Assembly: GCA_012729955.1 (NCBI GenBank)
Contig: JAAYBX010000019.1
Location: 1-43,667 of the forward strand
DNA from: Clostridiaceae bacterium
GTDB taxonomy: Bacteria; Bacillota; Clostridia; DUPQ01
Direction: 5' to 3'
DNA: 43,667 nucleotides
Positions 25,752 to 34,297 of this stretch are shown in pieces. Numbering within the stretch: the stretch's first letter is position 1; each line of letters opens with the position of its first letter. The notes below the pieces were generated by a model. It saw nothing but the letters and a program-made list of their open reading frames with translations, was not told where the DNA came from and made no database searches. The translations under genes and the position numbers were made by a program.

Positions 25752-28358
25752 CTAGTTCTCTGCTTTCACTGTAAGCCCATTATCATCGTAATCAACATAG
25801 AGCATTGTGTCAGGTTCCAAATCCTGCGACAATATCATTCTTGCAATAAGTGTCTCCACGTGACTTTGTATATATCTCTTTAAAGGACGTGCTCCATAAA
25901 TGCTGTCAAATCCCTGATCTACGATATATTCTTTTGCAGACTCAGATATCTTTATGTTAAGTTTTTTCTCCTTCAGTCTGTTTTCCAGATTTTTAATCAT
26001 AAGGCCGACAATAGACATAATCTCGGTTCTTGATAAAGGTTTATAAAATACTATTTCATCCAGTCTGTTTAAAAACTCCGGGCGGAACTGCTGCTTTAAA
26101 AGAGAATCTACCATACTCCTTGCTTGCAAAGATATTTCATTATCTTTTGTTATTCCCTCAAGTATGTACTGGGTTCCAAGATTTGAGGTCAGTATTATAA
26201 TTGTATTTTTAAAATCAACGGTACGCCCTTGTGAATCCGTTATCCTGCCATCATCTAAAACCTGCAACAGGATATTAAACACTTCAGGATGCGCTTTCTC
26301 TATTTCATCAAATAATACAACCGCATACGGTTTTCTTCTCACAGCTTCTGTAAGCTGTCCGCCTTCCTCGTATCCTACATAACCCGGAGGTGCTCCTATC
26401 AGTCTGCTTACTGAAAATTTTTCCATATACTCGCTCATATCAATTCTTACTATATTTTTCTCATCATCAAAAAGCGCCTGAGCAAGAGCTTTGGCAAGTT
26501 CGGTTTTCCCAACACCGGTAGGACCAAGGAATAAAAATGAACCTATAGGCCTGTTAGGATCTTGAATTCCTGCTCTTGACCGGATTATGGATTCGGTTAC
26601 TTTTCTGACCGCCTCTTCCTGGCCTATTACCCTTCTGTGCAGTATCTCTTCAAGTCCCAAGAGTTTTTCCCTTTCGCTCTGCATAAGTTTGGATACCGGA
26701 ATACCAGTCCATCTTGCGACTATTAAGGCTATCTCTTCTTCGGTAACCTTATCCCTTAAAAGAGTACGTTTCTGTTCTGCTTTTTCCTCAATCTCTTCTT
26801 GTTCAACAAGAGCTTTTGTAAGAGCCGGGAGCTTCCCGTATTTAAGTTCAGCTGCCTTGTTTAGATCATATTCTCTTTCAGCTTTTTCAATCTGCGCATT
26901 TATCTTTTCTATCTCTTCCCTGATTTTCTGTACTTTGGATATAGATGTTTTCTCGTTCTCCCACTTGGCTTTCATCTGGTTGAAGACTTCCTTCATTTCA
27001 GCTAATTCCTGCCTTATCTTAGTCAGCTGTTCATTGGAAAGCTTGTCGTTTTCCTTTTTCAACGCAGCCTCCTCAATCTCATGCTGCATTATTTTCCTGG
27101 ATATCGCATCCAGCTCTGAAGGCATGGAATCTATTTCAGTTTTTATAAGAGCGCACGCTTCATCAACCAGATCAATTGCTTTATCTGGCAGAAACCTGTC
27201 AGATATGTATCTGCTGGATAGTGTTGCTGCTGCTATAAGTGCCTTATCTTGTATTTTGACTCCATGAAACACTTCATATCTTTCTTTGAGCCCTCGCAGA
27301 ATGGATATTGTATCCTCAACTGTAGGCTCATTTACCATTACTGGCTGGAACCTTCTTTCTAAAGCAGCATCTTTTTCTATGTACTGACGATACTCATTCA
27401 AAGTTGTAGCTCCTATACAGTGAAGCTCACCTCTTGCTAGCATAGGTTTTAGTAAGTTACCTGCATCCATCGCACCTTCAGTCTTTCCCGCTCCTACAAT
27501 GTTATGAAGTTCATCAATAAAGAGTATTATCCTGCCTTCAGATTTCTTTATCTCCTGAAGAACTGCTTTGAGTCGTTCCTCAAATTCTCCCCTGTACTTA
27601 GCGCCGGCAACTAGTGCTCCCATATCGAGTGAGAATATCTTCCTTTCTTTTAGGTTGTCTGGTACATCACCTCTTACTATCCTTAATGCAAGTCCCTCAG
27701 AAATAGCGGTTTTTCCTACACCTGGCTCACCTATCAGCACTGGATTATTCTTCGTTTTTCTGGATAATATCCTTATAACGTTCCTTATTTCCTCATCACG
27801 TCCTATTACTGGGTCAAGTTTCTGATTTCTTGCTAGTTCTACAAGATCCTGGCCGTATTTCTTAAGCACATCATATGTCGATTCTGGATTATCGGATGTA
27901 ACTTTGGTATTCCCTCTTATTGCAGCAAGCGCTCTGAGGAAGGAATCCTTTGTTATGCCTGTTCCTCTTAAGAGCTCTTTTATTTTTGAATTAGCTGTCT
28001 CAATTATAGCAAGAAATATATGCTCAACTGAAACATATTCATCCTTCATCACTTTTGCCTGCTTTTCTGCCTCATTCAGAGTCTGGTCAGTGTCCTTAGA
28101 AACATAAACCTTATCCGGTTCTCTCCCGCTTCCTGTTACTTTAGGCAGTGCAGACACCAGTTCTTCCGCTTTTTTGATAAGTAATCCAGTATTTAAGTTC
28201 ATCGATACCATCAACTGTATAATAAAGCTTTCAGGCTGATTCAGAAGTACATACAGAAGATGCTCCTGTTCAATCTGCATGTTGCTATACTCTACAGCAA
28301 GACTTTGCGCTTCATTAATTGCTTCTATGGATTTTTGTGTAAATTTCTGTATATTCAT
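25752..28358 (-). CDS. clpB: ATP-dependent disaggregase ClpB
   Basis: 868 residues, the normal length. The N-terminal Clp domain is about 1-145. The first ATPase ring has Walker A GEPGVGKT (210-217), the long coiled-coil M domain spans about 410-530 and distinguishes ClpB from ClpC, and the second ring has GPTGVGKT (612-619). The end lacks a ClpP-binding loop. With DnaK it rescues aggregated proteins. It is the second gene of an operon, 16 bases after a ribbon-helix-helix gene, with no CIRCE or obvious CtsR box in front. Transcription should start at the promoter at 29069-29097. Confidence 0.96.
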
Positions 28359-28374: not shown

Positions 28375-29046
28375 TTATATTATCATTTCTGCTTTTACAT
28401 AATATTCCCTATATACTGCATATATGCTTGATATCACATAATCGGTGTTCTCTGCATTATCAATATTATCCATGAATATTCTCAATGCTTTATCTAATGC
28501 TGCAATATACGATGCAATTGCCCTTCCAAGGTTTTCCTCTTTATAAGCTATTTGTTTTTTCAAAAAGAAAATTCTTGTATAACAGACATTTTCATATAAT
28601 GTCATTTCCACTTCATCATATGAATCGGGTATCAGCTTTTTTTCTGCTTGCTGCCATATCATAAAAAATCCTTCTATTGCTGTTATCAGACTGCTGCTTT
28701 GTGTTCTTACCTGTGCTTTCAGTTTTAGGAAAGGACCTTTGTCCTGGCTTAAAATTTCAAGACAGTAGCGTATTGTCGGACGATATCTGTAACTTAAGGC
28801 ACTTCGTATGTCCATAAAGGAATTTGAACTCATTTCCACAAATGCATATCTTCCCTGCGGTTCCAAAAAAGCTTTTGCTGCATCAAGAATATCTTTCATC
28901 CTCTGCTGAGGGGTTGTGTATGACACATGAGATGCGAGTACTTCATTAATATAGTTTGAACGGCTTGTCCTCATTGTATATGCAAGCGCATCGATCTTCT
29001 TTATTACCTCATCGTTCAGTATAAGGCTATACACAGATTTCCCCAT
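28375..29046 (-). CDS. Ribbon-helix-helix protein upstream of clpB
   Basis: 223 residues from the ATG at 29046, preferred over a GTG at 29058 because gtgaggg is about five bases before it. Residues 1-40 ([41 protein letters not shown]) fit a ribbon-helix-helix DNA-binding motif: a short beta strand, then two helices joined by a T-S-R-S-N-Y turn. The remaining ~180 residues are helical, of unknown family, and could be a sensor or oligomerisation domain. It is the first gene of the clpB operon, and a 22-bp palindrome adjoins the operon's -35 box. A role as regulator of clpB is inferred, not established. Confidence 0.8.
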
Positions 29047-29068
29047 TACATCCCTCACTTTCGAAACA

Positions 29069-29117
29069 ATTGTAACATTAATCTCTTAATTTGACAATGA
29101 TGTTATATAACATCATT
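29069..29117 (-). promoter_or_regulatory. Promoter and palindromic site of the RHH-clpB operon
   Basis: Minus-strand -35 TTGTCA (29097-29092), 17-base spacer, -10 TACAAT (29074-29069). A perfect 22-bp palindrome, each half reading AATGATGTTAT, occupies 29096-29117 and overlaps the outer end of the -35. It is not followed by a T-run in either direction, so it is a protein-binding site candidate and not a terminator. Confidence 0.7.
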
Positions 29118-29220
29118 AACGAATCCTTCTTTTCCCTGTTATTCATTGATTCATATAAAAAATACATATATATAGATATGTATCCTGGGATAATATAGAA
29201 TAATAATATAGGAGAATCGT

Positions 29221-30495
29221 ATGAAAATAGGATATGCCTGTTTAACAGTTTCAGTCCCTGGAACAGATATAAGAGGATGCATTGCAAAAAATGCTAATAA
29301 TGAAAATTTATATGACATAATATCAATGAATCTGGATTCATTAATGAATATCCTCATATATAATGTAAAGAACGGTATCAGGCTTTTTCGAATCAGTTCT
29401 GATCTGATACCTTTCGGCTCGAGCGTAATAAATAAGCTTGAATGGCAAAAGATTTTCAAATCACGCTTTTTTGAAATTGGAGAGTATATAAGGAACAATC
29501 AATTAAGGGTATCCATGCATCCAGGTCAGTATACAGTATTAAATTCATTAAACGAGGATGTTGCTAAAAGAGCAGTTGATGATCTGTTGTACCACTGCGA
29601 TGTTCTAGATTTAATGGAGTGCGACAATTCATGCAAAATCATACTGCATATAGGTGGAGCATATGATAACAAACAAAAAGCAATTGAAAGATTCAAAGAA
29701 AACTATATCAAGCTTGATGCACGTATAAAGAAACGTCTGATAATAGAAAACGATGACAGGATTTTTAATATAAGTGAAGTGCTGGATATAGCGAATCAGC
29801 TGAAAATACCAGTGGTGTATGATAACCTTCATAATTATGCCAATCCTTATGATGAAAGCATAACTGATCTGCAGTGGATAAAGCAGTGTTCCTCAACATG
29901 GACAAAAAAGGACGGAAATCAGAAGATCCATTACTCACAACAGGACAAAGGGAAAAAAACAGGCTCTCACTCCCAGACAATTTCCCTTAGTGAATTCTTA
30001 CAATTTTACCGGAACATATCCTCTTCTGATACAGATATTATGCTGGAAGTCAAGGATAAGAACATATCTGCTGTGAAATGCATTAATGCAGTATCAGATA
30101 AAAGAAAGATATCAGCTCTGGAAGATGAATGGGCAAGATATAAGTACAGTGTGCTGGAAAAATCGCATAAGCATTATCTTGAGATAAGAAACCTGATCAA
30201 GGACAAGAATTCATATCCTGTGATGGAATTTTATTCATTAATAGAAGAAGCTTTGAAAATGCAAGGGTCTGTTAATTCCTCTATCAACGCTTTCGAGCAT
30301 GTCTGGGGCTACTTCAAGGATAAAGCTGACGATAAAGAAAAGAAAAAGATACAGGCTCTTATAGAGAACTATAAGAGCGGTACATCAGTAAATATTGAAA
30401 ATGATTCTATAAAAGTAAAATCCTTTCTGATGAAGCTAAGTGAAAAATACAATGAAGCTTATCTTTTGAACTCATACTATTTCTATTTGCAATAA
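29221..30495 (+). CDS. uvsE: UV-damage endonuclease UvsE with fused C-terminal DUF1722 domain
   Basis: 424 residues. The first ~300 match UVDE, a TIM-barrel endonuclease that nicks 5' of UV photoproducts and other lesions: MKIGYACLTVSVPG, FRISSDLIPFGSS, LRVSMHPGQYTVLNS, IILHIGGAYDNK, LIIENDDR and VVYDNLHNYANP, with metal-binding His, Glu and Asp present. The family is usually near 300-320 residues. The extra ~120 residues (from about 302: WARYKYSVLEKSHKHYLEIRNL, HVWGYFKDKADDKEKKKIQALIENYKSG at 360-387, AYLLNSYYF) match DUF1722, the domain of YbgA encoded beside photolyase in E. coli. Transcribed alone, divergent from the clpB operon. Confidence 0.9.
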   Translation: MKIGYACLTVSVPGTDIRGCIAKNANNENLYDIISMNLDSLMNILIYNVKNGIRLFRISSDLIPFGSSVINKLEWQKIFKSRFFEIGEYIRNNQLRVSMHPGQYTVLNSLNEDVAKRAVDDLLYHCDVLDLMECDNSCKIILHIGGAYDNKQKAIERFKENYIKLDARIKKRLIIENDDRIFNISEVLDIANQLKIPVVYDNLHNYANPYDESITDLQWIKQCSSTWTKKDGNQKIHYSQQDKGKKTGSHSQTISLSEFLQFYRNISSSDTDIMLEVKDKNISAVKCINAVSDKRKISALEDEWARYKYSVLEKSHKHYLEIRNLIKDKNSYPVMEFYSLIEEALKMQGSVNSSINAFEHVWGYFKDKADDKEKKKIQALIENYKSGTSVNIENDSIKVKSFLMKLSEKYNEAYLLNSYYFYLQ

Positions 30496-31548: not shown

Positions 31549-31636
31549 TTTATACATAAATGCTATTTGAAAATGATATATAGTCTGCAATTTACAAACT
31601 TTTATGGATGATGACCGATCAGGAAAGGAGTCAGAC

Positions 31637-32119
31637 ATGACTAATCTGCAATTTGCTATTAAAATGGAATATGACGGTGAAAAATTTTACAAACAACAGG
31701 CAAAACTGAATAAAGATAACGGGCTTCATACAGTATGCATGATGCTTGCAGAAGACGAAAAAAACCATGCTAGAATTCTTGAGAATAAAATGAATAATCT
31801 TGAATACGATTTGCCTCCATCAGCACTTTCAGACCAGAAGACGATATTTGAAAATTTAAATGGAGTCTCATTAGATGAAAAAGAGAAATTAAATCAGTTG
31901 GATTTTTATCGCATTGCAGCTGATATGGAAAAACAAAGCATTAAATTATATGTCAAATACCTCGAGGCTTCCCCGGGCAAAAAAAGTCAGGAGATGTATG
32001 GATACCTCATAAAGCAGGAGCAGCTTCATTATGAAGTGATTGATGCGCTTGCAGAAGCATTAAGGAATGCTGAGGAGTGGGTAGAAAATGCAGAATTCGG
32101 CAATAGGCCGGAATATTAG
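31637..32119 (+). CDS. Rubrerythrin-like ferritin-family protein
   Basis: 160 residues from the ATG at 31637 (aaggag six bases upstream; a frame start at 31604 has none). It is a four-helix bundle with glutamates spaced for a di-iron site: MEYDGEKFY (first), LAEDEKNHARIL with ExxH, DMEKQSIKLY, and KQEQLHYEVI. There is no C-terminal rubredoxin domain, so it would need an outside electron donor. Such proteins reduce hydrogen peroxide in anaerobes. It opens a tight run with a flavodiiron protein, MsrAB and a diguanylate cyclase. Confidence 0.85.
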   Translation: MTNLQFAIKMEYDGEKFYKQQAKLNKDNGLHTVCMMLAEDEKNHARILENKMNNLEYDLPPSALSDQKTIFENLNGVSLDEKEKLNQLDFYRIAADMEKQSIKLYVKYLEASPGKKSQEMYGYLIKQEQLHYEVIDALAEALRNAEEWVENAEFGNRPEY

Positions 32120-32135: not shown

Positions 32136-33317
32136 ATGAAGAAATTAGTAAAGAATAACGTATACTGGGTAGGAAAAACAGACTGGGAACTGAAAAAATT
32201 TCATGGAGACGAGTATTCTACTCATCACGGCTCAAGTTACAACAGTTACCTTATATTAGAAGAAAAGACCGTCCTTATAGATACTGTATGGGCGCCATTT
32301 GATAATGAATTTGTTGAGAATCTGGAAAAAGAGGTTGACTTAGCCAAGATAGACTTCATTGTTTCAAATCATGGTGAAGTTGACCACAGCGGAGCACTTA
32401 ACAAACTTATGGAGAAAATCCCGAATACCCCTATATACTGCAGTGCCAATGCAGTTAAATCATTAAAGGGACAGTATTTCAAAAATTGGGATTTAAGGAT
32501 ATTAAAAACTGGAGATACTCTGGATATAGGCAATGGAAAGCAGCTGGTTTTTGTTGAAATGCGTATGCTGCACTGGCCAGACAGTATGGCAGCTTACCTT
32601 ACAAAAGACAATATACTATTTAGTAATGACGCATTCGGACAACACTATGCGTCAGATCATCTCTTTAATGACCTTGTTGATCAGTGCACGCTATATGCTG
32701 AGGCAGAGAAATATTATGCAAATATACTAACTCCATTTAGTGCAGTATTGAAAAAGAAATTGGAAGAAATCCATTCAATGAATCTGGATATAGATATAAT
32801 CGCACCGAGCCATGGCATTATATGGAGAGATAATCCGCTGCAGATAGTGGATAAATACATTTCATGGTGTGATGATTACAAGGAAAATCTCATTACAATT
32901 ATTTATGACACCATGTGGAACGGAACTAAGACGCTTGCTGAAAAGATAGCACAGGGCATTCGCGAAAAAGATGCTGATGTCCAGATTAAGATATTCAATC
33001 TGCCAAAAAGCGATATGAATGATATTGCTACACAAATTTTCAAATCCAAAATGGTGCTTTTGGGTTCCCCGACAATAAATAACTGCGCACTGCATTCGCT
33101 TGCAGCATTAACCCACTATATGAAAGGTCTGAAATTTAAAAACAAAAAAGCAGCAGCATTTGGATGTTACGGATGGTCAGGCGAGTCAGTCAGGATATTG
33201 AATGAAATGCTTAACGATGCCGGTTTTGATGTTGTAAATGATGGCCTGAAATGTTTATGGAACCCAGATTCTGAAGTATTAGAAAAAGCATTTGATTTTG
33301 GAAAGGATATTGCATGA
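32136..33317 (+). CDS. fprA: Flavodiiron protein (FprA, oxygen/NO reductase)
   Basis: 393 residues. The N-terminal beta-lactamase-like domain carries the di-iron ligands H79-x-E81-x-D83-H84 ([10 protein letters not shown]), then H in MLHWPDS, D in FSNDAFG and H in APSHG. The C-terminal flavodoxin domain (about 252-390) binds [21 protein letters not shown] and [17 protein letters not shown]. These enzymes reduce oxygen to water or nitric oxide to nitrous oxide using rubredoxin or F420-type donors. It sits between a rubrerythrin-like gene and msrAB (four-base ATGA overlap), a clear oxidative-stress operon. Confidence 0.95.
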
Positions 33318-34297
33318 GCATCAATTCAAATGAGATATATCTTGCAGGAGGATGTTTCTGGGGTATAGAAAAATACTTTTCAGTTATAAAAGGTGTATTA
33401 AGCACACTAGTAGGGTATGCTAATGGTAATACTGAAAATCCTACTTATCAGCAGGTATGCCATGAAAACACAGGGCATGCTGAAACTGTCAAAATAACAT
33501 ATGATAAGGAAGTAACAACTCTTGAATTCCTGCTGGACATGTTTTACGATGTGATAAACCCTGTGTCTGTAAACAGACAGGGTAATGATATCGGATCTCA
33601 ATACAGAACAGGAATATATTATACCGACAAATCAGATCTTGATATAATAAAAAAATCAATTCATAAACTTCAGGAAAAATTTGATAAGCCAGTCGCGATT
33701 GAGATAATGCCTTTGCTCAACTTCTACCCCGCTGAAGAATATCATCAAAAGTATCTGGACAAGAATCCTAATGGATACTGCCATATATCACCTGTTAAAA
33801 TTCAGCAGGCAGCCAATATTAAACAAACTGAAAAAGATGAAAAAAGAAGATTCTACAAAAAAAGCGACGATGAACTAAAAAAAACACTGACTCGCCTTCA
33901 GTATGATGTAACACAGAAAAATGCCACTGAACCTCCTTTTCAAAATGAGTATTTTGATAATACAAAGTCGGGAATATATGTAGATATAACATCTGGAGAA
34001 CCTTTATTCCTTTCGACAGATAAATTTGATTCTGGATGTGGCTGGCCAAGCTTTACCAAACCGATAGATACTAAAAAAGTAAAAAATAAGACCGATTTTA
34101 CACATGGTATGAAAAGAATTGAAGTAAGAGCGTTTATATCAGATTCCCATCTTGGACATGTATTTACTGATGGGCCTGTGAGTAAAGGCGGTTTACGTTA
34201 CTGTATAAACAGCGCTTCTATAAGATTCATACCCAAGGAGGATATGGAAAAAGAAGGATATGAAGATTTCATCTCTCTGATTTCAGAAAAGGAGTAA
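33314..34297 (+). CDS. msrAB: Bifunctional peptide methionine sulfoxide reductase MsrA/MsrB
   Basis: 327 residues. MsrA comes first with the catalytic Cys14 in [12 protein letters not shown] and the family stretch [23 protein letters not shown]; MsrB follows (about 175-320) with [21 protein letters not shown] and the catalytic Cys297 in [12 protein letters not shown]. The Zn-binding CxxC pairs of many MsrB proteins are absent, as in PilB-type MsrB. The two domains repair S- and R-methionine sulfoxide. Overlaps the flavodiiron gene and is followed three bases later by a diguanylate cyclase gene. No signal peptide, so it is cytosolic. Confidence 0.95.

Follow-up and report, generated by a model that had tools for sequence, protein, structure and literature searches.

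A ribbon-helix-helix protein encoded beside clpB is a predicted autorepressor of the chaperone operon in Clostridia

In the 43,667-nucleotide stretch of Clostridiaceae DNA analyzed here (the window), clpB is preceded by a gene, termed rhh below, that encodes a protein with a predicted N-terminal ribbon-helix-helix (RHH) domain. Comparative sequence analysis indicates that the rhh protein is very probably a dedicated autorepressor of rhh-clpB, acting in place of control by CtsR or HrcA. An earlier note on this DNA had proposed an autoregulated RHH-clpB switch; its outline stands with respect to gene linkage (31/31 loci), a dyad at the promoter (31/31), the occurrence of one site per genome, the lack of a CIRCE or CtsR box and the usual absence of CtsR, and the elements that we infer are DNA binding by the rhh protein, the sign of regulation and the oligomeric state. 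The control of ClpB in Firmicutes is usually told only in terms of CtsR and HrcA. CtsR is the class III heat-shock repressor of Firmicutes, is autoregulated, and leaves the promoter when proteins misfold. No published account of an RHH regulator of clpB was found among open-licence papers, most of them represented by title or abstract.

Results

rhh and clpB are linked in all loci

The genes of the window and the domains of the rhh protein are located as follows:
28375 to 29046, minus strand: rhh gene, 223 aa (ATG at 29046, stop ending at 28375), with an RHH_1 N-terminus and a family of full-length homologues
Residues 1-45 of the rhh protein: N-terminal RHH domain
Residues about 65-223 of the rhh protein: C-terminal domain of about 160 aa, fold unrecognised
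25752 to 28358, minus strand: clpB, 868 aa, matching TIGR03346 with 1333 bits (above the cut-off), 16 bp downstream of rhh

The open reading frame coordinates and the TIGR03346 match agree with the earlier description of a 223-residue protein encoded 16 bases before clpB. Profile searches of 391 genomes from the class detected full-length homologues in 28, and a phylum sample of 398 added a single genome belonging to a different class (G696). Two more came from other collections, namely the Subdoligranulum variabile record OY725857.1 (335 kb) and the faecal contig MT839315.1, and these 31 loci, with identities of 28-80% for the rhh homologues, form the set analyzed below. Weak matches with E near 1e-3 (e.g., L032 and L033), which are fragments lacking an adjacent clpB, were left out of the count, and in a fourth congener (G003) a contig end cuts clpB, so that rhh there was treated as missing data. 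A search of viral contigs found no relative.

In all 31 loci clpB lies directly downstream of rhh on the same strand, which answers the question raised earlier of whether homologues stay beside clpB; the distance from the rhh stop to the clpB start ranges in the class set from a 7-base overlap up to 213 bases. The distances among RHH proteins and among ClpB proteins are correlated (Mantel r 0.77, reached by 0/5000 permutations). This strict one-to-one linkage and correlated evolution, and the large C-terminal domain with its invariant positions, would be expected if the rhh protein were mainly a partner of ClpB, an adaptor or co-chaperone working through its C-terminal domain, with RHH autoregulation serving only to set its own dose. 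The same features are compatible with a repressor role too, most ClpB proteins function without an rhh protein, and the protein matches no adaptor family; we consider the partner explanation unlikely.

In a ClpB tree, the ClpB of the window clusters with ClpBs that are likewise RHH-linked, together with a few under CIRCE control, and is split (100/100) from the CtsR-boxed ClpB of the sister genus. The simplest reading is that the rhh-clpB unit was transferred into the genus of the window, the alternative being differential loss. Two loci are filed as mobile elements, OY725857.1 (L112) as 'plasmid 23' and MT839315.1 (L113) as 'Bacteriophage sp.'; both carry rhh-clpB and the dyad, and both are probably bacterial chromosomal contigs.

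The rhh protein has an RHH-type N-terminal sequence and a C-terminal domain of its own

The full-length protein of the window falls under the Pfam cut-offs, and the RHH_1 score of this member alone lies beneath the curated cut-off. At the level of the family, 18 of 19 N-termini match PF01402 (RHH_1; best 1.1e-6), and the N-terminal family profile aligns with the structures of CopG and Rv0298 over residues 1-37 (E 0.0036 for CopG and 0.0015 for Rv0298, within a range of 0.0015-0.0038), in line with the N-terminal RHH pattern noticed earlier in this protein. The N-terminal consensus reads M-x-K-S-x-Y-S-L-x-L-x-D-E-V-V-x-x-I-D...NRS-x-L-I-N-x-I-L-A-E. By these strand-helix-helix profile matches the rhh protein is a predicted member of the RHH (CopG/MetJ/Arc) superfamily. 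The assignment of the fold rests on sequence profiles because the AlphaFold monomers were poor or a single helix: a full-length model from three sequences reached a pLDDT of 51, and the 48-aa N-terminus, modeled alignment-free as a monomer, gave one long helix, the beta-ribbon forming only in the dimer.

The C-terminal domain contains ten invariant residues (Y86, Y88, P90, Y94, R114, L120, F127, E135, R158 and Y180), and its family profile found no relative in Pfam or the PDB. The earlier note had taken this domain to be helical; the low-confidence model is mixed alpha/beta, which would not clearly fit an all-helical domain.

A 40-bp dyad is conserved at the promoter

The promoter region contains the following elements, all on the minus strand:
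29092 to 29097: -35 hexamer, TTGTCA
29069 to 29074: -10 hexamer, TACAAT, after a 17-bp spacer; kept in three congeners
29096 to 29117: perfect 22-bp palindrome, AATGATGTTATATAACATCATT; core and inner spacers symmetric in this species
29087 to 29126: 40-bp dyad, the predicted operator, GGATTCGT-TAATGATG-TTATATAA-CATCATTG-TCAAATTA; layout common to 31/31 loci
29103 to 29110: dyad core, TTATATAA; conserved in all loci, with small variants in family f54
29119 to 29126: outer left arm, GGATTCGT, consensus WAAnTYGT; the G before the last base invariant in 31/31
29087 to 29094: outer right arm, TCAAATTA, consensus ACAARTTW; overlaps the -35, the second-position C invariant in 31/31

Both the promoter TTGTCA-17-TACAAT and the perfect palindrome are present as claimed earlier, including the end coordinate 29117. 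The palindrome AATGATGTTATATAACATCATT is the only perfect one of at least 22 bp in the window, where 0.05 would be expected from a first-order Markov model of the window, and it is unique across the 2.28-Mb genome even with up to 3 mismatches allowed. It is imperfect in two congeners, and its outer letters vary even within the genus. Its core TTATATAA is conserved, the outer letters of its half-sites are species-specific, and the conserved outer arms had been overlooked. The exact 22-bp sequence was rejected as the operator, being not kept in congeners, and palindrome searches in homologous promoters returned unrelated matches.

What is conserved at the promoters of all 31 loci is the consensus WAAnTYGT-N8-TTATATAA-N8-ACAARTTW, in which the invariant G of the left arm mirrors the invariant C of the right arm. 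When 28 promoters were aligned on TTATATAA and the -35, the conserved left arm emerged although it had not been used for anchoring. For scoring, each genus contributed a single locus (21 genera by the groups used); the left arm matched the right arm's reverse complement with 4.1 bits at the symmetric offset, compared to -14.4 (sd 1.9) elsewhere, and 0/20000 random placements reached 4.1 bits. Three held-out loci (L080, L112 and L113), which were not used in defining the motif, fit the dyad with 1, 0 and 2 mismatches, respectively. The two arms are separated by 32 bp, or three helical turns, which places them on one side of the helix; the core, 16 bp from each arm, faces the other side and could serve as a third binding site or, with its many TpA steps, as a flexible hinge. 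The earlier note had asked whether the site is kept in relatives that retain the gene pair, as the dyad is throughout the 31 loci. The restriction of the exact 22-bp palindrome to this species would be in keeping with a coincidence of palindrome and RHH pattern in an AT-rich intergenic region, with clpB expressed constitutively. Such an explanation is contradicted by the dyad itself, found in 31/31 loci and 21 genera with invariant arm positions, and we regard it as barely credible.

The position of the dyad points to repression

The -35 is overlapped by the dyad's right arm in 29 of 31 loci. In the remaining two, L018 and L025 (family f60, genus g112), the intact dyad is located immediately downstream of TTGACA-17-TATCAT. 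Because the dyad can occupy either the -35 or the stretch just after the -10, repression is favored, and its position points to repression as the predicted mode of control. The greater part of the dyad is upstream of the -35 in the majority of loci, a position compatible with an rhh protein that binds there and activates clpB transcription. Against activation stand the overlap of the right arm with the -35, the placement of the dyad wholly past the -10 in L018 and L025, and promoters that already have good hexamers at 17-bp spacing; activation is improbable. In L018 and L025 the entire dyad appears to have shifted from the -35 to a position just past the -10, a natural operator relocation.

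The gene divergent from rhh (29221 to 30495, plus strand) encodes a UvdE/UvsE UV endonuclease with a DUF1722 domain fused at its C-terminus. Control of this uvsE gene from the dyad was considered and rejected: congener L005 has a different divergent gene there, and the dyad stays with rhh.

The dyad is found at a single site per genome

Of the 28 RHH genomes in the class sample, 16 contain an exact match to the dyad, in each case at rhh and nowhere else; 3 of 363 RHH-less genomes also contain one, fewer than the 5 genomes matched by the reversed control pattern. Elsewhere in the RHH genomes, looser half-sites occur beside unrelated genes and have no consensus arms, and a search of these genomes for a regulon beyond rhh-clpB found none. 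The rhh-clpB pair thus appears to be a single-site system. A wider regulon was rejected, since the additional TTATATAA-N5-TTGWCA sites adjoin unrelated genes and are missing arms except at L036 in one congener, where they are off consensus. That site (G001:C27:14131-14149), which is away from rhh, is the symmetric TACCTTGA-N8-TTATATAA-N8-ACAAGGTA, with arms off the family consensus, and is probably due to chance.

Binding of the dyad by the RHH protein is a prediction from sequence, which leaves room for another regulator to read the dyad while the RHH protein binds elsewhere. Enrichment of the dyad is confined to genomes that carry rhh, and in those the dyad is found only at rhh; clpB genes without rhh have no dyad, even within family f60. 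Another reader of the dyad is, on these observations, highly improbable.

CIRCE or CtsR boxes occur at many clpB genes that lack rhh

Scanning of the whole window for CIRCE (TTAGCACTC-N9-GAGTGCTAA, up to 5 mismatches) and for the CtsR box (up to 3 mismatches) detected neither, which upholds the earlier statement that no CIRCE is seen at clpB. Likewise, 0 of the 28 RHH promoters of the class carries a CIRCE or a CtsR box; a conserved CtsR or HrcA box, the finding that the earlier note had named as counting against its proposal, was not found at the RHH loci. Among RHH-less clpB genes with readable upstream sequence (n=14), a perfect CIRCE is present at five and a CtsR box at three, another five sit behind the end of a dnaJ-like gene (C-terminus read by eye), and one has none of these. 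The contrast extends to single families. In f60, RHH occurs in three genomes and CIRCE in two, the clpB without rhh carrying a perfect CIRCE in place of the dyad; in f1, the genus of the window has RHH and its sister genus has a CtsR box.

CtsR is encoded in 4 of 28 RHH genomes, compared with 264 of the 363 genomes without RHH (Fisher p = 1e-9, with phylogeny ignored), and the genus of the window is among those that retain it. HrcA is present in 28 of 29 genomes with RHH, and was not detected in the incomplete assembly to which the window belongs. The rhh protein itself has no match to PF05848 or PF01628. In the genome of the window (L114, C149:9000-16000), ctsR is followed by a radA-like gene (identified by eye), and a scan of this 7-kb region around ctsR, allowing up to 2 mismatches, detected no CtsR box.

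Discussion

A working model for rhh-clpB control

We propose that the N-terminal RHH domains dimerize and would bind the 40-bp dyad through its arms and core, and that the bound protein would occlude the -35 and so repress rhh and clpB together. The C-terminal domain probably links RHH dimers over the length of the operator in a NikR-like manner, and may relay a proteotoxic-stress signal upon which the DNA would be released; ClpB would then rise and, with new repressor, repression would return. Arc, MetJ and CopG have a known centre spacing of 8-11 bp. That one RHH dimer sits on each of the three subsites is not certain, because the arm-to-core distance of 16 bp exceeds this spacing. Candidate signals are heat lability, aggregate titration and feedback from ClpB or DnaK. 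By analogy with HrcA-GroEL, HspR-DnaK and CtsR, the precedents for chaperone feedback or heat lability, these two mechanisms are the leading possibilities.

Comparison with known systems

The predicted rhh system is like CtsR in having a clp gene as its target and in autoregulation. CtsR is a winged-helix protein that recognizes a GGTCAAA repeat and has a regulon of several genes, whereas the rhh system has an RHH fold (by profile), a different operator and one target, and CtsR is missing from 24 of 28 genomes carrying rhh. HrcA with CIRCE is likewise a chaperone-operon repressor, as is predicted for rhh, acting at an inverted repeat, and controls some of the related clpB genes; the rhh protein belongs to another family, would use another inverted repeat, and no CIRCE is found at rhh-linked clpB.

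With CopG, Arc, MetJ and NikR the rhh protein has in common a predicted N-terminal RHH domain, a dyad at its promoter and, by prediction, autorepression, but it differs from the known RHH repressors in that its dyad is a three-part element of 40 bp and its target is a chaperone. In NikR a C-terminal tetramerization domain, which is nickel-binding and ACT-like, bridges separated half-sites; the C-terminal domain of the rhh protein matches neither NikR nor any PDB or Pfam family. Similarity to the RHH of antitoxins (VapB, MazE and RelB types) is weak and far beneath the curated cut-offs, and in contrast to these antitoxins the rhh protein is about three times longer and is partnered by clpB in 31/31 loci, with no toxin.

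Significance

Some 7% of the class genomes sampled, as well as gut Oscillospiraceae such as Subdoligranulum, would thus contain an unannotated dedicated regulator with a defined predicted operator, and this switch would explain how clpB is controlled where CtsR is missing. The protein and its dyad offer a ready protein/DNA pair with which to examine how repressors detect damaged proteins, and the switch, being compact and single-target, could be used in stress reporters. More tentatively, the rhh proteins may form a separate class of Clostridia heat-shock repressor beside CtsR and HrcA, devoted to one chaperone, whose C-terminal domain would read ClpB or aggregate load and whose cassette, together with its operator, would move between lineages and replace a resident clpB controlled by CtsR or HrcA.

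Elsewhere in the window, a 327-aa open reading frame (33314 to 34297, plus strand) resembles a fused MsrA-MsrB methionine sulfoxide reductase. Near it are a rubrerythrin-like gene (31604 to 32119) and a flavodiiron-like gene (32136 to 33317), and the group, as judged by eye, resembles an oxidative-stress cluster.
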